Source: Gordonia asplenii (GTDB taxonomy: Bacteria > Actinomycetota > Actinomycetes > Mycobacteriales > Mycobacteriaceae). From it: DNA of 64,000 bases. Every line of letters starts with the position of its first letter. Positions within the stretch are counted from its first letter, which is position 1. The position numbers and the translations under genes were made by a program. The notes under the pieces were generated by a model. It was not told where the DNA came from. It did not search any database and was given only the letters and a program-made list of their open reading frames with translations. Shown here piece by piece: positions 33,662 through 42,856 of the stretch. The stretch lies in the NCBI RefSeq assembly GCF_012933505.1, contig NZ_JABBNB010000028.1:1-64000 (forward strand), given 5' to 3'.

Positions 33662-33838
33662 CGCAGGTAGGCGGGTAGATATCGGGCGAATCCCGCCACT
33701 TGCGGCAACGCCGCATCACAACTCACGTCGCTTTATTCACAACTGCCACGCTAAGCTCCAGGAAGCACGTGCGTGTCTAATGTTCGTAGGAGGGGAAGCC
33801 TACGGCCACGATGCGTGCTCGAAAGAGGTATCGATTTC

Positions 33839-34069
33839 ATGGCTGCAGAGAAGTCTGGTGAGAGAAGCAGCACAGTGGGCAACGCGGCCAACGGCACGCA
33901 GTTCCTCACCGTCGCTGAAGTCGCATCGCTCATGCGTGTGTCGAAAATGACCGTGTACCGACTGGTGCACAGCGGCGAACTGCCCGCGGTGCGCGTCGGA
34001 CGGTCGTTCCGCGTACACGCTAAGGCCGTGCACGACTACCTGGAGACGTCGTACTTCGACGTCGGGTAG
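33839..34069 (+). CDS. Excisionase-type helix-turn-helix protein (Rv0500A-like)
   Basis: A 76-residue DNA-binding protein of the MerR/Xis-like (helix_turn_helix_17) type: FLTVAEVASLMRVSKMTVYRLVHSGELPAVRVGRSFRV forms the HTH and wing. Despite the excisionase label, its fixed position after proC (as Rv0500A in M. tuberculosis) argues for a chromosomal regulator rather than a phage gene. The ATG at 33839 has AGAGG upstream; a TTG/GTG-started extension of 22 residues is possible but not needed. Confidence 0.88.
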   Translation: MAAEKSGERSSTVGNAANGTQFLTVAEVASLMRVSKMTVYRLVHSGELPAVRVGRSFRVHAKAVHDYLETSYFDVG

Positions 34070-34082
34070 TGATGACGTAGTC

Positions 34083-34113
34083 GTGCCCGACGGTGAGCAT
34101 CACCGTCGGGCAC
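34083..34113. terminator. Perfect 14-bp hairpin between convergent genes
   Basis: GTGCCCGACGGTGA, loop GCA, TCACCGTCGGGCAC. It lies 14 bases after the HTH gene and 21 bases after the ridA stop on the other strand, so it can end transcripts from both sides. No T-run. Confidence 0.75.
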
Positions 34114-34133
34114 TGAGACCGTTCTAACGCCGG

Positions 34134-34538
34134 TCAGTCGAGTACGGCCAGCGCGTCGATCTCGACGAGCATGACCTCATGCGGAAGGTCGGCGAAAATC
34201 GTGGTGCGGCAGGGGAGGGCGGCACCGTCGGCGACATTGGCTGCGATGAACTCGCCGTACACCTCGTTCATCGGGGCGAAGTCCTCCCGTTTGGTGAGGT
34301 AGACGCGGAACATCAGCACATCGCCCACGCCGGCGCCGCCGGCCTCCAGAATTGCTTTGACATTCTCCAACGTGCGTCGCGTCTGCTCTTTCACGTCTCC
34401 CGCGGCGATGTATTGGTTGGTGTAGGGGTCCATCGGACCTTGACCGGACACCTGCAGCAGGTTGCCGCGGCGCACGCCCTGGCTGAAGAAATGCGCGGGC
34501 GCGGGGGCGTCGGGGGTGGAAACGGCGGTAGCCGACAT
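34134..34538 (-). CDS. ridA: RidA-family enamine/imine deaminase
   Basis: RidA proteins hydrolyse reactive enamine/imine intermediates released by PLP-dependent dehydratases. The 134-residue product has the trimer-forming fold markers SGQGPMDP, NVKAILEAGGAG, and the active-site Arg in PCRTTIF with the downstream VEIDALAV. ATG follows GAGGAGAG. Its place downstream of kinase and IclR genes, opposite a PLP-dependent deaminase gene, suggests it speeds release of ammonia in the same pathway. Confidence 0.9.
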   Translation of the reverse strand: MSATAVSTPDAPAPAHFFSQGVRRGNLLQVSGQGPMDPYTNQYIAAGDVKEQTRRTLENVKAILEAGGAGVGDVLMFRVYLTKREDFAPMNEVYGEFIAANVADGAALPCRTTIFADLPHEVMLVEIDALAVLD

Positions 34539-34601
34539 GAATTTTCTCTCCTCTATGTGGGGTGGGTTCTATGTGGGGTTTGGGTATGCGCGGGGTATGG
34601 G

Positions 34602-35348
34602 TCAGCGCGGCTCGTAGCCGCAGTCCGCGGAGATCGCCGCGCACACCGTGCGCAGCGGATCGAGCAGTTCGAGTAGTTGGTCGTAGGGCAATACGAACTC
34701 CGGCACCGAGACCGACACCGCTGCGATCACGTCGCCGCCTGCGGCGCGTACCGGTGCGCCGATGCAGTTGATCGACGGTTCGTTCTCCTCGCGGTCGGCC
34801 GCCCAATCCTGCTCGCGGATCTTTGCCAGCTCAGCCAGGTACGTCTTCGCGTCGGTGATGGTGTTGTCGGTTCGTCGGCTGAAGTCCATCTCGGCGACGA
34901 TCGGTCGAAGTTCGACGTCGGGCAGGCTCGCGAGCAGCAGTTTTCCGACGGCCGACGAGTTCAGGTTGGCCTGCATGCCGACCCGCGAATACATCCGGAT
35001 CAGATCGCGTGACTCGAGTTTGTCGATGTAGACCACCGCGTCGCCCTCGCGGGCCGCGAGATGCGTGGTGCGTCCGTATTCGCGATTGAACGCGATCAGA
35101 TGTGGCGAGGCGATGTCTCGGATGCCGCGCTGCTCAGCGGCCCGGGCGGCGAGGTCGAACACGCGTGAGCCCAGATGGTAGCGGTGCTGCGGGTCCCGGT
35201 AGGCGTATCGCGCGTCGACCAGCGGGCGCAGCAGCCGCAACACCGTGGTCTTATGGACGGTCAACTCGTCGGCGAGGTCGTCGAGGGACGCGGGTCCCTC
35301 ACCGAGCCGGGCCAGGATCTCCAGGGCGCGCGACAGGGACTGGCTCAT
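34602..35348 (-). CDS. IclR-family transcriptional regulator
   Basis: A 248-residue regulator with an N-terminal winged helix (LSRALEILARLGEGPASLDDLADELTVHKTTVLRLL region, residues 3-40) and a C-terminal IclR effector domain (TTHLAAREGDAVVYID, NLNSSAVGKLLLAS, INCIGAPVRA). Its start overlaps the kinase stop (ATGA). It most likely controls the divergent kinase and deaminase promoters through the GTTGCGT-type sites at 36448-36511, with a pathway sugar acid such as KDG as ligand. The 63-base gap to ridA holds an imperfect direct repeat of ATGTGGGGT. Confidence 0.9.
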   Translation of the reverse strand: MSQSLSRALEILARLGEGPASLDDLADELTVHKTTVLRLLRPLVDARYAYRDPQHRYHLGSRVFDLAARAAEQRGIRDIASPHLIAFNREYGRTTHLAAREGDAVVYIDKLESRDLIRMYSRVGMQANLNSSAVGKLLLASLPDVELRPIVAEMDFSRRTDNTITDAKTYLAELAKIREQDWAADREENEPSINCIGAPVRAAGGDVIAAVSVSVPEFVLPYDQLLELLDPLRTVCAAISADCGYEPR

Positions 35349-36385
35349 GCGCCCTCCCGGATCTCCACTTCAACCGCTGCGGGGTAGTCGATGCCACCGA
35401 CTCGGACGCCGTCGGGGCTGATCCGGGCCGCTGACCAGGTCTCATCGTCGGCGTCGAGCAACGCGGCGACGGCGTCGTCGGGCATGCGGGCGAGATCGCC
35501 GCGCACGGTGAGTGTCGCGGCGGCGCCGATGTGACCGCGCCGAAGGCAGGTGCGCACCGGTTCGCCGAGCGCGAGGCCGTGCAGGAATCCTGCCGCGAAC
35601 GAATCGCCCGCACCGACCGGCTCGACGACGACTACCGATAGCGCATCGGCGCTGACCCGACTGCCGTCACGGCTGACCGCAATCGCTTTGACGGCTCCGT
35701 CTTTGATGATCAGCAACTCGGGGTCGGGGAGCAGTGCGCGCAGCTCGGCCGGGTCGTCGGTGCCGAAAACCCGCTCGGCTTCGTCGGCTCCGACGAGGGT
35801 GACGTCGGCGGCGTCGGCCAGCGGCAGCAGTGGCGCGGGGTCGGCGTCGGGCCACAGTTGCTCGCGCCAGTTCACGTCGAACGTCACCCGCCCGACGACG
35901 CCGGTGCGTCGGATCATCAACTCCGACAACAGGTCCGCGCAGGTCGTCGACAGTGGCGGGGTGATCCCCGACAGATGCACGATCCGAGCCCCGGCCAGCG
36001 CGGCGGCCACCGCCGGATCGCGCAGCATGTCCGTACCCATCGCCGACGCCGCGGATCCGGCCCGACGGTAGGTGCTGGAGGTGACCGGCTCGCCGCCATC
36101 GTCGACGCCCTCGGTCTTCGCATACCGACCGGTCGGCAGGTGTGCATCCACCTCGACCGCCCCGACGTCGACGCCGTAGGAGCGCAGATGGTTCAGCACG
36201 GCGGTGCCCTGCGGGTCGGCGCCGACACGGCTGATGTATCCGGTGGGGACGTCGAGCGCGGCCAGCGCGGTTGCGACATTGGCCTCCGCGCCGCCGACCT
36301 TCATCGCGGCGTCGGGGACGTCGAGGTCGTCGGCGGCGACGAGGGCAAGGGGTTCACCCAGGCAAACGACCAGCGGTCCGCTCAA
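35345..36385 (-). CDS. PfkB-family sugar kinase, probable 2-keto-3-deoxygluconate kinase
   Basis: A 346-residue ribokinase-family kinase. Substrate-side motif VGGAEANVATALAALD, DVNWREQLWP (typical of KDG kinases), and the catalytic GAGDSFAAGFLHG with the base Asp are present. The assignment to KDG comes from the adjacent KDPG aldolase gene: kinase plus aldolase turn KDG into pyruvate and glyceraldehyde-3-phosphate. TTG start at 36385 with a strong GGAGG site eight bases upstream. The C-terminal 35 residues beyond the kinase fold are unusual. Confidence 0.85.
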   Translation of the reverse strand: MSGPLVVCLGEPLALVAADDLDVPDAAMKVGGAEANVATALAALDVPTGYISRVGADPQGTAVLNHLRSYGVDVGAVEVDAHLPTGRYAKTEGVDDGGEPVTSSTYRRAGSAASAMGTDMLRDPAVAAALAGARIVHLSGITPPLSTTCADLLSELMIRRTGVVGRVTFDVNWREQLWPDADPAPLLPLADAADVTLVGADEAERVFGTDDPAELRALLPDPELLIIKDGAVKAIAVSRDGSRVSADALSVVVVEPVGAGDSFAAGFLHGLALGEPVRTCLRRGHIGAAATLTVRGDLARMPDDAVAALLDADDETWSAARISPDGVRVGGIDYPAAVEVEIREGA

Positions 36386-36447
36386 CTTTCGTGCCTCCGT
36401 TCTCCAGGTGGCGGCCCCGACGTCGGGTGTGGGAATTCGTTGCCGCA

Positions 36448-36511
36448 GTTGCGTATCGAATGTTAGCCTCTGTGAGACAAATCACGCAACGTGAATTGCA
36501 TTATACGCAAC
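36448..36511. promoter_or_regulatory. Divergent operator region, IclR-type sites
   Basis: GTTGCGTAT at 36448-36456 and its exact reverse complement ATACGCAAC at 36503-36511 form a 9-bp inverted repeat 46 bases apart; a third site, TCACGCAAC, lies at 36482-36490. TTGCATTATACGCAA (36496-36510) is itself a loose dyad. All lie in the 146-base gap between the divergent kinase and deaminase genes, the natural operator of the cluster regulator. Confidence 0.5.
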
Positions 36512-36531
36512 CTTGCAGATAGAGGTGCCAA

Positions 36532-37785
36532 TTGATCGACCGGATCGACGGCCGACCGGCTCTGCTGAGTGTGACCGATAAATCCGTTCCACCGTGGGCG
36601 AATCAGCTTTCGTCCACCGAATTCCTCGCGCGCGAACCTCGGCTGGCTGATCTGGGGACCCCGCTGCTGGTGCTCGACGAAGAGATCGTGGCCGCCAACC
36701 TCGCCGAATTCGCCCGGTGGACCGCAGCGCACGGGTTCGATCTGGAACCGCACGGCAAGACGACGATGGCGCCGATCCTGTGGCAACGACAGCTCGACGC
36801 GGGCGCTACTGCGATCACCGTCGCGAACTACCCGCAGCTGCGGGTCGCGGTGGCGGCCGGGGTGCCGCACGTGCACGTCGCCAACGTCGTCGCCGACCCC
36901 GCCGCCCTCGCGTGGCTGGCGGGAGCCCTGGCCGACGACGCCGACCTGCAGGTCACGCTGTGGGCCGACGGTCTCGGCGCCGTCGACGCCTACGAAGCGG
37001 GCCTCGCGGGCGCGAGCCGCGGTCCGAACGTTCTGGTCGAGCTGGGCGGGCCCGGTGGTCGCACCGGCGCGCGATCGATCGAGGACGCCGTCGTCGTCGG
37101 CGAGCGGATCGCGGCGTCGAGCGTTCTCCGACTGGGCGGCGTCACCGGGTATGAGGGCGCGTTCGCCCACCACGACGACCCGGCGTCGCTGGCCGTCGTC
37201 GACGGCTACCTGGAGAACCTGCTCGAGCTGCACCGACGCCTGCGCCCGCACTACGACGACGGTCGGATCGTCGTCTCGGCCGGTGGCAGCGCCTACTTCG
37301 ATCGGGTCGCCGCGGTACTCGGCGGCGTCGACAATGCGCGGGTCGTCGTGCGCTCGGGCGCCTACATCATCCACGACGACGGGTTCTATCGCGGTATCAC
37401 GCCGACCGGGCGGATGGCCGACGCACCCGCGCTGCGCTCCGCGATGCACGTGTGGGCGCGTGTCATCTCCCGCCCCGAACCCGGCTTGGTGCTGCTCGAC
37501 GTCGGCAAGCGCGACGTCTCGTTCGACGAAGGACTGCCCGAACCGCAACTCGCCGCCCCGACGCTGGGCGGCCCGAGTCGCCCGCTGACCGGCGAGATCA
37601 CCGCCGTCAACGACCAGCACGCGTTTCTGCGGATCGCCGACGACACACCGCTGGCCGTCGGCGACGTGGTGCGGCTGGGCCTCAGTCATCCGTGCACGGT
37701 TCTCGACAAATGGCGCACCGTGGTCACCGTCGCCGACGGCTCCGACAATCCGCGGGTCGTCGACCTGCTGGCCACCTACTTCTAG
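36532..37785 (+). CDS. PLP-dependent D-serine dehydratase/D-threonine aldolase family enzyme; probable D-glucosaminate deaminase
   Basis: A fold-type III (alanine racemase-like) PLP enzyme of 417 residues. The PLP Lys lies in EPHGKTTMAP (Lys 76), and the C-terminal LSHPCTVLDKW carries the His and Cys that bind the catalytic metal in D-serine dehydratases. The family performs dehydration-deamination of beta-hydroxy D-amino acids. With a KDG kinase, KDPG aldolase and deacylase beside it, D-glucosaminate is the best candidate substrate, giving KDG and ammonia; D-serine or D-threonine remain possible. TTG start behind AGAGG. Confidence 0.8.
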   Translation: MIDRIDGRPALLSVTDKSVPPWANQLSSTEFLAREPRLADLGTPLLVLDEEIVAANLAEFARWTAAHGFDLEPHGKTTMAPILWQRQLDAGATAITVANYPQLRVAVAAGVPHVHVANVVADPAALAWLAGALADDADLQVTLWADGLGAVDAYEAGLAGASRGPNVLVELGGPGGRTGARSIEDAVVVGERIAASSVLRLGGVTGYEGAFAHHDDPASLAVVDGYLENLLELHRRLRPHYDDGRIVVSAGGSAYFDRVAAVLGGVDNARVVVRSGAYIIHDDGFYRGITPTGRMADAPALRSAMHVWARVISRPEPGLVLLDVGKRDVSFDEGLPEPQLAAPTLGGPSRPLTGEITAVNDQHAFLRIADDTPLAVGDVVRLGLSHPCTVLDKWRTVVTVADGSDNPRVVDLLATYF

Positions 37786-37793
37786 GGCCGTCG

Positions 37794-39392
37794 ATGCACG
37801 ACATCGCGATCCGCGACGCCACGGTGATCGACGGTACGGAGGGTCCGCGGCTGCACGCGGACGTGGCGATCGACGGTGACACGATCACCGCGATCGGAAC
37901 CGACGTCGGACGCGCGCATCGTACGATCGACGCCGCCGGGCGAGTCCTGAGTCCCGGCTTCATCGACATGCATGCCCATTCCGACCTGCAGGTCTTCCTC
38001 AATCCGACGCATCCGTCACGGATCACCCAGGGCGTCACCTGCGAGGTGGTCGGACAGGACGGACTGAGCTACGCCCCCGTCGACGACGACACCCTGGCCG
38101 CGGTAAGGCCGCTGATCGCGGGCTGGAACAGCGACCCGGCCGACTTCCCGTTCCCGTGGCGCAGCGTCGGGGAATACCTCGACCACATCGACACCGGCGT
38201 CGCGACCAACCTCGCCTACCTGGTGCCGCACGGACTGCTGCGTGCGCTGGCACGCGGCTTCGACGAGGGGCCGGCCAGCCCCGCGGAGATCGCCCGCATG
38301 CAGGAGATCCTCGCCCAGGGCCTACGCGAGGGCGCCGTCGGGCTGTCCACCGGACTGACGTACACGCCGGCGATGTACGCCGACGACGCCGAGCTGAGCG
38401 CGTTGTGCCGGACAACCGGCGAGCTGGGCGGCTACTTCTCGCCGCACCATCACAGTTACGGCGCGGGCGCGATGGAGGCCTACGCGACCATGATCGAGCT
38501 GTGCCGGCGCACCCGCTGTCCGTTGCACCTGGCGCACGCCACCCTCAACTTCGCGCCCAACGAAGGTCGGGCGCCGGAGTTGCTGGCCATGCTCGACGCC
38601 GAGTTGGCGGCCGGCGGCGACATCTCCCTGGACACCTACCCGTATCTGCCGGGGGCGACGACGCTGCACGCGATCCTGCCGAGCTGGACGGCGTCGGGCG
38701 GCGCCGAGGCGACCCTGGCACGATTGCACGACCCCGATGACCTCGCGCGGATCCGCGAGCACCTCGAAGTGGCCGGATCCGACGGCTGCCACGGCGTGAC
38801 CGCGGACTGGGCGACCGTGGAGATCAGCGGCGTCGGCAATCCCGCGTTGAGCGGCTACGTCGGGCGCACGATCGCGCAGATCGCCGCCGACACCGGGCGC
38901 GATCCGTTCGACGTGTGCGTCGGCATCCTCGTCGAGGACCGGCTCGCCACCGGGATCCTGCAGCACGTCGGGCACGAGGAGAACGTGCGAGCCATCATGG
39001 CCCACCGCGTGCACACCGCGGGCAGCGACGGCCTGCTCGTCGGAGGCAAGCCGCATCCGCGCGCCTGGGGGACATTCGCCCGCTACCTGGGCCACTACAG
39101 CCGCGACCTCGGGCTGATGAGCCTGGAGGAATGCGTCGGACACCTCAGCGGCCGCCCGGCGCGGCGTCTCAAGCTGCGCAACCGCGGGCTGGTCCGGGTG
39201 GGCTACGCCGCCGACCTGGTGCTCTTCGACCCCGACACCGTGATCGACCGTGCCACCTTCGACGCGCCGCGCACCCCGGCCGACGGCTTCTCCCACGTAT
39301 TCGTGCGCGGCGTCGCGGCCCTCGACGACGGCGAGCTCACCGGAGCACTCGCCGGACGAGCCCTTCGACTGACCGACCAAGGAGTTCAGTAG
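37794..39392 (+). CDS. N-acyl-D-amino-acid deacylase family amidohydrolase
   Basis: A 532-residue D-aminoacylase-type amidohydrolase. Family metal ligands are all visible: HAH at residues 60-62, Cys 83 in GVTCEVVGQDG, His in FSPHHHSYG and LHLAHATL, and Asp in HTAGSDGLLVGG. In this cluster it would remove the acetyl group from N-acetyl-D-glucosaminate before deamination; N-acyl-D-amino acids are the alternative substrate. No signal peptide, so cytoplasmic. Starts nine bases after the deaminase stop and ends five bases before the aldolase start, so one operon. Confidence 0.85.
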   Translation: MHDIAIRDATVIDGTEGPRLHADVAIDGDTITAIGTDVGRAHRTIDAAGRVLSPGFIDMHAHSDLQVFLNPTHPSRITQGVTCEVVGQDGLSYAPVDDDTLAAVRPLIAGWNSDPADFPFPWRSVGEYLDHIDTGVATNLAYLVPHGLLRALARGFDEGPASPAEIARMQEILAQGLREGAVGLSTGLTYTPAMYADDAELSALCRTTGELGGYFSPHHHSYGAGAMEAYATMIELCRRTRCPLHLAHATLNFAPNEGRAPELLAMLDAELAAGGDISLDTYPYLPGATTLHAILPSWTASGGAEATLARLHDPDDLARIREHLEVAGSDGCHGVTADWATVEISGVGNPALSGYVGRTIAQIAADTGRDPFDVCVGILVEDRLATGILQHVGHEENVRAIMAHRVHTAGSDGLLVGGKPHPRAWGTFARYLGHYSRDLGLMSLEECVGHLSGRPARRLKLRNRGLVRVGYAADLVLFDPDTVIDRATFDAPRTPADGFSHVFVRGVAALDDGELTGALAGRALRLTDQGVQ

Positions 39393-39396
39393 CGCC

Positions 39397-40023
39397 ATGA
39401 CCGACAATCCCATTCTCGACGACCTGCGCGCCGACCGCGCGCTGACCGTGGTCCGCGCGCCGTCGCTGCCCGACTCTGCGGCGCTGTGCCGGGCCCTCGC
39501 CGAGGGCGGAATCCGCACCGTCGAACTCACGTTCACCACCCCCGATGTGCTAACCCATCTCGAGCGCGCCGCCGACGTCGAGGGCACGTGCCTCGGCGTC
39601 GGGACCGTCCGGACCGCCGCGCAGGCGCGCGACGCCGTGCGCGCGGGAGCGAAGTTCCTGGTCACCCCCGACGTCAACGAGGAGGTCGCCGATGCCGCGC
39701 GCGACGTCGGCGTGCCGGTCTTCCTCGGCGCCCTGACCCCGACCGAGGTCGCCCGCGCGGCGAGCCTCGGGTCGGCGGTGGTGAAGATCTTCCCGGCCAA
39801 GGCCTTCGGGCCGGGATACCTCAAAGACCTGCACGGTCCGTTCCCGGGCCTGCCGTTGCTGCCGTCGGGCGGGGTCAGTGAGGCGAATGCGGGCGAATTC
39901 CTCGCCGCCGGTGCCGTCGCGGTGTGCGCTGGTACCTCAGTCGTTCCGCCCGCCACCGTTGCCATCGGTGACTGGGCGGACATCACCAGCCGCGCCGCCC
40001 GCTTCGTGGCCGCGCTCGGATAG
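39397..40023 (+). CDS. KDPG/KHG aldolase
   Basis: Splits 2-keto-3-deoxy-6-phosphogluconate into pyruvate and glyceraldehyde-3-phosphate. A 208-residue class I aldolase: general-base Glu 43 in RTVELTFTTP, phosphate-binding LGVGTVRT, Schiff-base Lys 130 in AVVKIFPAKAFGPGYLK, and LLPSGGVS. Length is normal. It follows the deacylase after four bases. There is no edd gene (6-phosphogluconate dehydratase) here, so KDPG must come from the kinase, not from the classical Entner-Doudoroff route. Confidence 0.92.
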   Translation: MTDNPILDDLRADRALTVVRAPSLPDSAALCRALAEGGIRTVELTFTTPDVLTHLERAADVEGTCLGVGTVRTAAQARDAVRAGAKFLVTPDVNEEVADAARDVGVPVFLGALTPTEVARAASLGSAVVKIFPAKAFGPGYLKDLHGPFPGLPLLPSGGVSEANAGEFLAAGAVAVCAGTSVVPPATVAIGDWADITSRAARFVAALG

Positions 40024-40034
40024 AAGGAATCCTC

Positions 40035-41422
40035 ATGTCCATCCATTGGCTGCAGCACGAGACGGGCGGCCTGCTGACGCTGGCCGCCATCTCCATCGCG
40101 GTGCTGCTGTTCCTCATCATCAAGGTGAAACTGGAACCCTTCACGCCCTGATCGTGGTGTCGGTGGGCTTGGCCCTCGTCGCGGGAGTCTCGGTGGAGAA
40201 GCTCGTCGGCTCACCGCAGAAGGGGGCCGCGCAATCGATTCTGGAACTCGGTTTCGCGGGGATCCTCGGACATATCGCGCCGATCATCGGTCTCGGCACG
40301 GTGCTCGGCGCGATCCTGGAGCGCTCGGGTGGCGCGGACGTCCTGACGAGTTGGCTGCTGAAGGTCTTCGGACCTAAGGGCGCGCCGCTGGCGATGGGAT
40401 GCACCGGCCTGATCCTGGGTATCCCGGTGTTCTTCGACATCGGCATCTTCATCCTCGCGCCGCTGGTCTACGTCACCGCGAAGCGCGGCGGCAAATCGCT
40501 CGTCATGTACGCGCTGCCGCTGCTCGCGGGCCTGTCGATGACCCACGCGTTCCTTCCGCCGCACCCCGGTCCGGTCACCGCGGCCGGCCTGCTGCACACC
40601 TCGCTCGGCTGGCTGATCGTGATGGGCCTCGCCTGCGGCATCCCCGCCTGGTTCGCCTCCGGTGTGCTGTGGGGCACGTGGATCGGCAAACGCGTGTGGG
40701 TCGACGTGCCCGAGGACTTCATCCCCGAGGAAGAATTCGCCAGCAAGAACCCGCCGGGGCTCGGACTGATCGCGTTCATCATCCTGGTGCCGATGATTCT
40801 GATCCTGGGCGCCACGTTCGGATCGATCACGCTGACGGTCGGCTCGAAGCCGTACTCGGTGCTGGTCTTCCTCGGCACCCCGGTGGTCGCATTGACGATC
40901 GCGGTGCTGTTCGCGTTCTATCTGCTGGGTATCCGACGCGGTATCACCGCGAAGGAGCTGGGCGAGATGACCGGCGCGGCACTCAAGCCCATCGGCATGA
41001 TCCTGCTGGTGGTCGGCGCGGGTGCACTGTTCGGCCTGGTGCTGCAGAAGACCGGCGTCGCCACCGCGCTGAGCGACTCGATGAAGAGCATGGGCCTGCC
41101 GCTGATCCTGTCGGTGTACCTGGTGTCCGCCGCGCTGCGAATCGCGCAGGGCTCGGCGACCGTGGCGATCACGACCACGGCCAGCATCTTCGGTGAGGCG
41201 GTCGCCAAGGGCGGCTTCTCGCAGCCGCAGATCGCGTTGCTGGTCATCGCAGTGTCGGCCGGCTCGATCATCCTCAGCCACGTCAACGACGGCGGGTTCT
41301 GGATCGTGTCGAAGTACTTCAACATGACGGTCAAGCAGACACTGATGACCTGGACGGTGCTGGAGACCATCCTGTCCCTGGTCGGTTTCGCGATGGTGCT
41401 CATCCTGTGGGCGTTCGTCTGA
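40035..41422 (+). pseudogene. GntP-family gluconate-type permease, frameshifted near its start
   Basis: The ATG at 40035 has an AAGGA site and codes MSIHWLQHETGG and a first membrane helix up to LIIKVKLEPF, then meets a stop at 40149. The rest of a normal GntP permease (HALIVVSVGLALVAG ... to the end at 41422, about 10-12 helices, ending MVLILWAFV) continues in the next frame. Adding one C at about 40142 would restore LEPFHALIV. Either this copy is broken, the assembly has a one-base error, or frame is recovered in translation; no classic slippery heptamer is seen. The product would import sugar acids for the cluster. Confidence 0.85.
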
Positions 41423-41566
41423 CCCGTCGTCGGCAAGGGAGGTCGTCGGACCCGATTTCGTCGTCTGACGTCCTGCCCGGTAGGCTGGTCGGGTTAGCCT
41501 CGACCGGTGGGGTCTGTCCGCCGGTCACATTGAGTCTTTAGCAACAAGTGGTTAGGAAGCACCCCA

Positions 41567-41668
41567 ATGGGTTCAGTGATCAAGAAGCGTCGCAAGCGCA
41601 TGTCGAAGAAGAAGCACCGCAAACTGCTTCGTCGTACCCGAGTGCAGCGTCGCAAACTCGGCAAATAG
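41567..41668 (+). CDS. Small basic ribosomal protein bS22 (AURKAIP1/COX24 type)
   Basis: A 33-residue protein, [20 protein letters not shown] followed by [13 protein letters not shown]: over half Lys/Arg. It matches the mycobacterial 30S subunit protein bS22 (Rv0500B) found near the decoding centre. Start is fixed by AGGAAG eight bases upstream. In M. tuberculosis it follows Rv0500A directly; here the seven-gene sugar-acid cluster stands between them. The gap 41423-41566 before it should hold its promoter. Confidence 0.95.
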
Positions 41669-41711
41669 GCATGTCGTCTCGCGCGTATCGGTCGCTGTAG
41701 AGACGAACACA

Positions 41712-41758
41712 GAACCCGCTCGGGTCACCGGATGCGTTCGGCGGCGTCGGGCGGGTTC
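41712..41758 (+). terminator. Rho-independent terminator after bS22
   Basis: GAACCCGC and GCGGGTTC pair as an 8-bp stem closing a structured loop, followed by TCGCTTTTCTCGTT, one of the few T-rich tails in this window. It ends transcription before the epimerase gene. Confidence 0.7.
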
Positions 41759-41800
41759 TCGCTTTTCTCGTTACCGTTAGAGCCGTGAGTGAGTTGAATC

Positions 41801-42856
41801 ATGACTGAGCAGTCGACTACGCCTTCGATGCCGCGTTCGGTGCTGGTGACCGGCGCGTCGACGTTCCTCGGTGGATACCTCGTCGCCCGGCTGGCCGCCA
41901 ATCCGGCGATCGAGACCATCGTCGCCGTCGATTCGCGTGTCCCGACCAAGGCGCTGTTGCGCCGGATGGGCCGCGCGGAGTTCGTGCGGCTCGACATCCG
42001 ACGCCCGACGATCGCCAAGACCATCGCGAACTACGACGTCGACACCGTCGTGCACGCGGCGACGTCGATCATGGACGACGCCCCGCACTCGGCGGCGATC
42101 AAGGAGTTCAACGTCGTCGGAGCGATGCAGGTGGTCGCGGCGTGTCAGCGCAGTCCGTCGGTCAAGCGGCTCATCTTGCGTTCGACCGCGATGGTCTACG
42201 GTGCGAGCAGCAAAGATCCGTCGCATTTCACCGAGGGCGACGCCCCGCGCCGCGAACCGTCGGGGTACGGTCGCGACCTGCTCGACATCGAGGGCTACTG
42301 CCGTGGGCTGTCGCGGCGACGCTCCGACGTCGACGTGACGATCCTGCGCTACCAGGCGATGCTGGGGCCGCGGATCCGGACGCGTATGGGGTCGTATCTG
42401 TCGCTGCCGGTGGTCCCGACGGCGCTCGGGTTCTCCGCGCGTATGCAGTTCCTGCACGAGGAAGACGCACTGTCGGCGCTCGAACACGCGACGCTCGCGG
42501 GCAAGGCCGGGACGTTCAACATCGCCGGTGACGGGGTGATCAGTCTGTCGCAGGCGATTCGCCGGGCGGGCCATCTGGAGATGCCGGTTCCGAAGGGGCT
42601 GTTGGCTCCGGTGTCGGCGGCGCTGCAGGACGTGCGGTCGGTGAAGCTGCGCTCGAGCCAGACCGACTGGCTGACCTACGGTCGGGTCCTCGACACCACC
42701 CGGATGCGCGTCGACCTCGGGTTCGTCCCGCGGTACACCACCGCGGCGACCGTCGACGACTTCATCGAGCGTGGTGGCAGCAAGCCGGTGATCTCGCCGG
42801 ACAAGTGGCACGACATCGAACGTTCGGTGGTCTCGGCAGCTCATCAACTGGTGTGA
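41801..42856 (+). CDS. NAD-dependent epimerase/dehydratase (SDR family, Rv0501-like)
   Basis: A 351-residue extended short-chain dehydrogenase. The nucleotide loop VLVTGASTFLGGYL, the Asp of VAVDSRVP, and LRSTAMVYGASSKDP are visible; the classical YxxxK active site reads GYGRDLLDIE, in which the Lys is replaced by Leu (YGRDL), so true epimerase chemistry is doubtful. M. tuberculosis Rv0501 (called galE2) is the positional relative. It may bind a sugar nucleotide without catalysis or act on another substrate. Confidence 0.82.
   Translation: MTEQSTTPSMPRSVLVTGASTFLGGYLVARLAANPAIETIVAVDSRVPTKALLRRMGRAEFVRLDIRRPTIAKTIANYDVDTVVHAATSIMDDAPHSAAIKEFNVVGAMQVVAACQRSPSVKRLILRSTAMVYGASSKDPSHFTEGDAPRREPSGYGRDLLDIEGYCRGLSRRRSDVDVTILRYQAMLGPRIRTRMGSYLSLPVVPTALGFSARMQFLHEEDALSALEHATLAGKAGTFNIAGDGVISLSQAIRRAGHLEMPVPKGLLAPVSAALQDVRSVKLRSSQTDWLTYGRVLDTTRMRVDLGFVPRYTTAATVDDFIERGGSKPVISPDKWHDIERSVVSAAHQLV

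Follow-up and report, generated by a model that had tools for sequence, protein, structure and literature searches.

N-acetyl-D-glucosaminate (GlcNAc1A) is the C1-oxidised end of chitin. A complete catabolic route for this acid, the ong pathway, has been reported in Gammaproteobacteria and one Betaproteobacterium and provides a published precedent for every step considered below; its deaminase, OngC, also accepts D-serine and D-threonine (Jiang et al. 2022, PMC9537276). In the deacetylase PpOngB, zinc is bound by Cys97, His222 and His252, the catalytic residue is Asp368, and GlcNAc1A is contacted by Tyr194, Glu226, Lys254, Tyr285, Ser290-292, Gln298 and Arg379 (PMC12017989). A haloarchaeal paper proposes a different route via phosphorylated glucosaminate (PMC12343721), and a search for ong genes in Aeromonas did not confirm the route there (PMC11653859). 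The main texts of both ong papers contain no mention of Actinobacteria or Streptomyces, and searches of open-licence papers, judged by title and beginning of abstract, listed no actinobacterial version, which does not prove that none has been described. The present analysis concerns a window of 64,000 nucleotides from Gordonia asplenii (contig NZ_JABBNB010000028.1, positions 1 to 64,000), in which seven genes at 34134-41422 probably form an island, under IclR control, for the catabolism of an N-acetylated 2-amino-2-deoxy-aldonic acid, with GlcNAc1A as the likeliest candidate. The features of the locus are the following.

34070..41800, no strand, island between a xis-like gene and galE (comparison of same-genus gaps)
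34134..34538, minus strand, RidA-family protein of 134 residues (PF01042, 98.7 bits)
34602..35348, minus strand, IclR-family regulator of 248 residues (Pfam), proposed binder of the operator at 36486-36511
35345..36385, minus strand, PfkB kinase, 2-keto-3-deoxygluconate (KDG) kinase-like, 346 residues (PF00294)
36486..36511, plus strand, operator GCAAC-N5-TTGC-N7-GCAAC in the promoter between the divergent kdgK and pyridoxal phosphate (PLP) enzyme genes
36532..37785, plus strand, fold-type III PLP enzyme of 417 residues from a TTG codon, start uncertain (PF14031)
37794..39392, plus strand, amidohydrolase (deacylase) of 532 residues, start ATG at 37794 (PF07969)
39397..40023, plus strand, aldolase for 2-keto-3-deoxy-6-phosphogluconate and 2-keto-4-hydroxyglutarate (KDPG/KHG), 208 residues (PF01081; TIGR01182)
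40035..41422, plus strand, GntP sugar-acid permease gene in two frames (tblastn, TIGR00791)

The genes lie in two divergent groups, with RidA, IclR and the PfkB kinase on the minus strand and the PLP enzyme, the Amidohydro_3 deacylase, the KDPG/KHG aldolase and GntP on the plus strand. A preliminary description of this DNA had named the same order, coordinates and families; the order and coordinates hold, and the families are borne out by Pfam matches to Ribonuc_L-PSP, HTH_IclR/IclR_C, PfkB, D-ser_dehydrat, Amidohydro_3, KDPG/KHG aldolase and GntP, the scan of gntP covering its second piece only. It had also pointed to a similar gene set in Pseudoalteromonas, which corresponds to the ong pathway (PMC9537276). 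The deacylase, PLP deaminase, kinase and RidA that together mark membership of that pathway are all present here. Rfam and tRNA scans gave no matches.

In the proposed pathway, GntP would import the free acid, from which the amidohydrolase would take off acetate. The PLP enzyme would then eliminate ammonia to yield KDG, and RidA would have an OngD-like role in clearing the reactive enamine or imine that the PLP enzyme releases. The PfkB kinase would convert KDG to KDPG, and the aldolase would cleave KDPG to pyruvate and glyceraldehyde-3-phosphate, with IclR holding both operons at the operator at 36486-36511 until a pathway compound binds the regulator. GlcNAc1A, rather than an epimer, is the predicted substrate, and the substrates of all the other steps are predicted as well; function in this strain, whose gntP is frame-split, is likewise presumed.

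The divergent region between kdgK and the PLP gene carries the operator pattern GCAAY-N5-TTGC-N7-GCAAY. It is found at 94 of 135 loci, once per locus, and shuffling the window 20 times produced no copy of it. A set of 80 named loci, the best 80 of 537 found with the deacylase half of a Microbacterium protein as query, displays the operator at 59 of 61 loci with an IclR gene and at 0 of 19 loci without one (agreement 78/80); IclR presumably binds this operator and represses from it. In the genome of the window, an exact match occurs twice, at 36486-36511 and on a different contig; allowing one mismatch raises the count to eight, a number equal to the control (8). A tighter pattern is present in 44 of 45 genomes hand-picked among deacylase holders, with 0 matches for the reversed control, and the single genome without it has no IclR gene in its fetched locus.

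These 45 genomes harbor 15 operator sites outside the cluster, and the relocated operator goes mostly to eda, the KDPG aldolase gene, or kdgK. At ten sites the operator precedes eda by ∼26-96 bp; eight of the genomes concerned belong to genus g52 (Streptomyces-like, as judged from gene order), and the other two are Streptomyces olivaceus and S. tendae. The fetched clusters of all ten are without an aldolase. In Microbacterium azadirachtae, where no kinase is seen at the cluster locus (L150), an eleventh site precedes a KDG-kinase-like gene by ∼42 bp; these distances use gene starts extrapolated from tblastn. Among 44 genomes (the neighbourhood of G346 being left out), 24 clusters have no eda and seven no kdgK, and a distant operator accounts for 10 of the 24 and one of the seven. 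As the operator also precedes distant eda or kdgK genes, the kinase and the aldolase are tied to the pathway, and this is the strongest evidence for a 2-keto-3-deoxy hexonate as the deaminated product. In one g52 genome, a second operator copy stands beside a lactonase gene (L230 1597-2823, PF10282) with a twin-arginine-like start, whose product would be suited to C1-oxidised chitin ends in their lactone form. No LPMO (lytic polysaccharide monooxygenase) or chitinase gene was recognised beside the outside sites, where some of the open frames were scanned.

A second line of evidence links the deacylase to GH20 hexosaminidases. GH20 matches occur in 20 of the 80 named loci, a share that is not a frequency since the Microbacterium query over-represents GH20 fusions. 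The GH20 region lies directly behind the deacylase in 15 Microbacterium-type loci (14 named Microbacterium and one Microbacteriaceae), is the opposite-strand neighbour behind the PLP, deacylase and aldolase genes in four loci, and is 7 kb away in one Arthrobacter locus. Deacylase and GH20 form a single open frame of 1087-1124 residues with a GGDE motif in 13 of the 15; the frame at L133 and L137 is not open from the match start, and these two are not counted as fusions. Pfam detects both domains in L081 and L054, and GH20 in L146, L158 and L192. In L081, which comes from the same record as L131, two ROK-family genes lie behind the fused gene. The linkage and fusion indicate that the deacylase works with an enzyme cleaving β-linked N-acetylhexosamine (HexNAc) oligosaccharides, and so would tie it to that class of substrate.

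The PLP enzyme is 34.6% identical to OngC of P. shioyasakiensis and 33.5% identical to that of Klebsiella, its closest solved relative is 3gwq (E 2.4e-52), and its HGKTTM and SHPC motifs are common with OngC, as expected of the OngC/3gwq subfamily. A tree of 31 rows groups the window enzyme with that of Tsukamurella (97/97). The window enzyme, the fusion-locus enzymes, OngC, 3gwq and the rest make up a 29-row group (100/100) that excludes D-threonine aldolase and BhcC. Inside this group, a branch with 98/98 support separates 16 rows, among them the Streptomyces and Saccharopolyspora cluster enzymes, OngC and 3gwq, from those of the window, the fusion loci and other actinobacteria. The window enzyme thus belongs to the subfamily of OngC without being its sister.

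The best solved relative of the kinase is the KDG kinase 1v19 (E 5e-36), and its best NCBIfam model, for kinases of KDG and 2-keto-3-deoxygalactonate (KDGal), is matched below cut-off (122 bits against 400); the putative name of KDG kinase follows from similarity to 1v19 and from context. The aldolase passes TIGR01182 with 173 bits at a cut-off of 156. For IclR, the best NCBIfam equivalogs are KdgR (154 bits) and BhcR (152 bits), both below cut-off. An edd gene, already noted as missing from the window, was not found in the genome as a whole either, in keeping with the pathway: the two ILVD_EDD proteins are an IlvD and a PRK06131-type dehydratase scoring 242 and 172 bits against an edd cut-off of 708. 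The latter protein, possibly a sugar-acid dehydratase, is encoded on another contig of the same genome (L096 1216-3066).

The deacylase is not an OngB. Its best solved relative by score is the D-aminoacylase AfDam (PDB 1m7j, E 1.6e-77), with 264 bits for AfDam and 225 for PpOngB, whereas the Klebsiella OngB scores 469 and 549, respectively. An alignment of its clade (254 rows, cut at 430 bits and including near-identical rows) reveals Asp, Asp89 in the window, at the position of the OngB metal Cys in 254/254; this Asp is a candidate metal ligand, giving Asp/His/His in place of the Cys/His/His site of subtype V. Compared with PpOngB, Glu226 is replaced by Tyr in 254/254 rows, Lys254 by Thr in 230/254, Ser290 by Gly in 248/254, Ser291 by Ala in 191 (Ser is kept in 39) and Ser292 by Thr in 252. 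Three of the four sugar-hydroxyl-binding residues differ, and the fourth, Gln298, is not assignable owing to an insertion. The HxH motif, two His and the counterparts of Asp368, Tyr194, Tyr285 and Arg379 are conserved in all 254 rows, and five ong-like proteobacterial rows in the same alignment retain the OngB residues. With neither the Cys metal ligand nor the carboxylate-binding Lys, the protein also departs from the D-aminoacylases AfDam and BbDam. Any deacetylation of GlcNAc1A by the clade would use another metal site and pocket. Clade members, where named by their source, are mostly called N-acyl-D-amino-acid deacylase or D-aminoacylase. The AlphaFold model has a mean pLDDT (predicted local distance difference test) of 69.7, with several active-site stretches under 50.

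The seven-gene set is an island, because the genes that flank it lie 322-690 bp apart in 29/29 other same-genus loci, which were obtained for 29 of 40 other genomes. In the window, the xis-like gene (33773-34069) and galE (41801-42856) are 7.7 kb apart, and galE is found in all 41 same-genus genomes searched. Three other genomes of the genus harbor distant PLP genes only (38-40% identity). Of the clusters seen in their gene context, the nearest come from Tsukamurella and from other genomes of its genus group, with deacylase identities of 78-83%, a RidA in Tsukamurella 90% identical to that of the window, and the same seven genes in the same order, gntP being intact in the Tsukamurella record. 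The base composition of the island (0.687) is like that of the rest of the window (0.667) and so does not hint at where the island came from.

The gene set is more than a chance association: several genera repeat the order RidA-IclR-KdgK<>PLP-Dac-Eda-GntP, and others have variants of it. At E <= 1e-100, the deacylase clade is present in 74 of 394 sampled genomes of the class and in 21 of 137 genera. Among 52 loci taken by position from genomes of the class and the family, 41 have a PLP-family gene near the deacylase. Gene presence at loci is defined by tblastn matches, the gene finder being crude. By this measure, the 80 named loci contain RidA in 78, PLP in 77, IclR in 61, KdgK in 53, Eda in 41 and GntP in 41, and their genera include Streptomyces, Kitasatospora, Nocardia, Rhodococcus, Kribbella, Saccharopolyspora, Arthrobacter and Microbacterium. 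Other arrangements exist. Small-genome actinobacteria (1.3-1.5 Mb; L068, L075, L079) keep PLP, RidA and deacylase genes together, and L079 additionally holds a short-chain dehydrogenase/reductase and a solute-binding protein. Genomes of family f19 (L047, L053, L066, L072, L077) have RidA divergent from the deacylase, with a kinase match behind RidA in two of five. A PLP enzyme was not found in the vicinity, and a different deaminase may take its place there. The deacylase gene of L085 (genome G230, genus g23) is apparently interrupted, with two tblastn pieces ∼2.8 kb apart.

A number of observations weigh against the proposed pathway or its operation in this organism. A chitin-oxidising life style is not indicated: the 6.64-Mb genome has no AA10, GH20 or GH18 match (AA10: 0 at E <= 0.001), so the organism could only scavenge free acid made by others or use a substrate of other origin. 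Across the class, AA10 LPMOs are matched in 120 of 394 sampled genomes, comprising 58 of 74 with the deacylase and 62 of 320 others. Two genera supply 50 of the 58 (38 and 12), and when genera are counted instead the comparison becomes 9/21 against 31/116 (p 0.19), so co-occurrence with LPMOs was rejected as support. Four of the 15 outside operator sites have no known pathway gene, lying beside the lactonase, a GntR regulator, an ATP-binding cassette (ABC) permease region and an IclR/ABC region, and no second operator precedes eda in 14 of the 24 genomes or kdgK in six of the seven. The 11 of 52 loci without a PLP gene all have deacylase identities <=53%, and some are on short contigs. Identities to the ong proteins are low, at 27% for the kinase, 34% for the PLP enzyme and 30-35% for the deacylase. 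Relative to P. shioyasakiensis, used as a stand-in, they are 34.6% for the PLP enzyme, 31.7% for RidA (OngD), 29.9% for the deacylase and 26.9% for the kinase, short of the at least four homologues over 30% by which Jiang et al. recognise the pathway. The deacylase was rejected as an OngB, lacking the metal Cys, Lys254, Glu226 and Ser290-292. Finally, gntP is not the single intact gene first described. A tblastn search with the intact 464-residue Tsukamurella GntP aligns its residues 4-38 to one frame (40038-40142) and residues 40-464 to another (40145-41419), at 84-86% identity over both pieces, with the change near 40,143; the second piece passes TIGR00791 (351 bits, cut-off 293). This may be a true break of the gene in this strain or an error of the assembly.

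The split raises the possibility, a tentative one that is compatible with any assignment of substrate, that the copy is a once-functional import now losing its transporter. Residue 220 of the deacylase (window 38451-38453) is His where 249 of 254 clade rows have Arg, and a close PLP gene (E under 1e-60) is present in one of 41 same-genus genomes, that of the window itself. Against decay, the remaining six genes read open, the same His220 is found in a metagenome deacylase 88% identical (P0002, available without its gene context), and an assembly error could produce the split. As to the substrate, the same steps could serve another isomer or acyl form, such as N-acetyl-galactosaminate or another 2-acylamino-aldonate or its lactone, with kinase and aldolase of KDGal and phosphorylated KDGal (KDPGal) type. 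GH20 enzymes also accept β-N-acetylgalactosamine, the kinase has its two best NCBIfam matches, both below cut-off, with models of bifunctional KDG/KDGal kinases, substrate-contact residues are altered in the deacylase, and an ong-like cluster on a Klebsiella plasmid (L033 8571-15835) is annotated with a KDGal-type kinase and a KDPGal-type aldolase. This alternative is unlikely given that the window aldolase fits the KDPG/KHG model, that the three of ten distant-operator aldolases that were scanned best fit KDPG aldolase models, and that LPMO-oxidised chitin is named as the source of such acids (PMC12017989).

Catabolism of N-acyl-D-amino acids by a D-aminoacylase and a D-serine or D-threonine dehydratase, with the kinase, aldolase and GntP incidental, is more doubtful still. 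It would agree with the Tsukamurella annotation (D-aminoacylase and alanine racemase) and with a below-cut-off match of the window GntP to the NCBI model of the D-serine transporter DsdX. OngC also accepts D-serine and D-threonine (PMC9537276), so activity on these amino acids alone would not refute the GlcNAc1A pathway. Plain D-serine or D-threonine catabolism is disfavoured since a kinase and an aldolase would be needless there, and the operator precedes eda at ten distant sites and kdgK at one. The deacylase, moreover, is without the Cys and Lys common to D-aminoacylases and OngB (PMC12017989). On the distant operators and the GH20 fusion, D-amino acid catabolism was rejected as the main role. 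The core of the preliminary proposal, a pathway for GlcNAc1A or a close isomer, is likely to be right: its step logic is supported by the operator before distant eda and kdgK and by the GH20 linkage and fusion. The deacylase, however, is no OngB, and gntP is frame-split.

A broader proposal, about evenly balanced between acceptance and doubt, is that actinomycetes possess a class-wide regulon for oxidised chitin ends, defined by the IclR operator and separate in origin from the gammaproteobacterial ong system. In this proposal, a new Asp-for-Cys deacetylase subfamily would have taken up GlcNAc1A independently and become fused, in Microbacterium, to the hexosaminidase releasing its substrate. 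Many actinomycetes have AA10 LPMOs, yet the searches of open-licence papers listed no published pathway for their use of the oxidised ends; the proposed route would be one. The operator gives a means to track the regulon, and the fusion protein ties deacylase to hexosaminidase; if the substrate is confirmed, the clade would add a second type of GlcNAc1A deacetylation, based on a different metal site.

New relative to the described systems are a regulon defined by its operator, the placement of that operator ahead of distant eda and kdgK genes, the deacylase-GH20 fusion and the divergence of the deacylase. The ong clusters of Pseudoalteromonas prydzensis and other Gammaproteobacteria share with the island a D-aminoacylase-fold deacylase, a fold-III PLP deaminase, a sugar kinase and RidA, and those of Vibrio, Klebsiella and Serratia also have kdgA. 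The solved protein 3gwq, 'D-serine deaminase' being its depositors' name, groups in the tree with OngC and a Cupriavidus relative. The Klebsiella deacylase of L033 matches PDB 9g5m ('Amidohydrolase family protein') over its full length. PpOngB (PDB 9kb1, 9kb3) and the window deacylase have in common the amidohydrolase fold family and the HxH, His, Asp, Tyr194, Tyr285 and Arg379 residues, and differ by Cys97 to Asp, Lys254 to Thr, Glu226 to Tyr and Ser290-292 to Gly-Ala-Thr and by an insertion of ∼42 residues; AfDam likewise has Thr at the Ser292 position (PMC12017989), but the window protein is without its subtype V metal-site Cys and carboxylate-binding Lys. The ong clusters are associated with a MurR/RpiR regulator and an SSS transporter, whereas the island has IclR with an operator of its own and GntP, and no TonB receptor gene is seen. 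A β-hexosaminidase is part of the ong cluster and of part of the actinobacterial relatives, whose deacylase is of another subfamily and, in Microbacterium-type loci, is fused to GH20.

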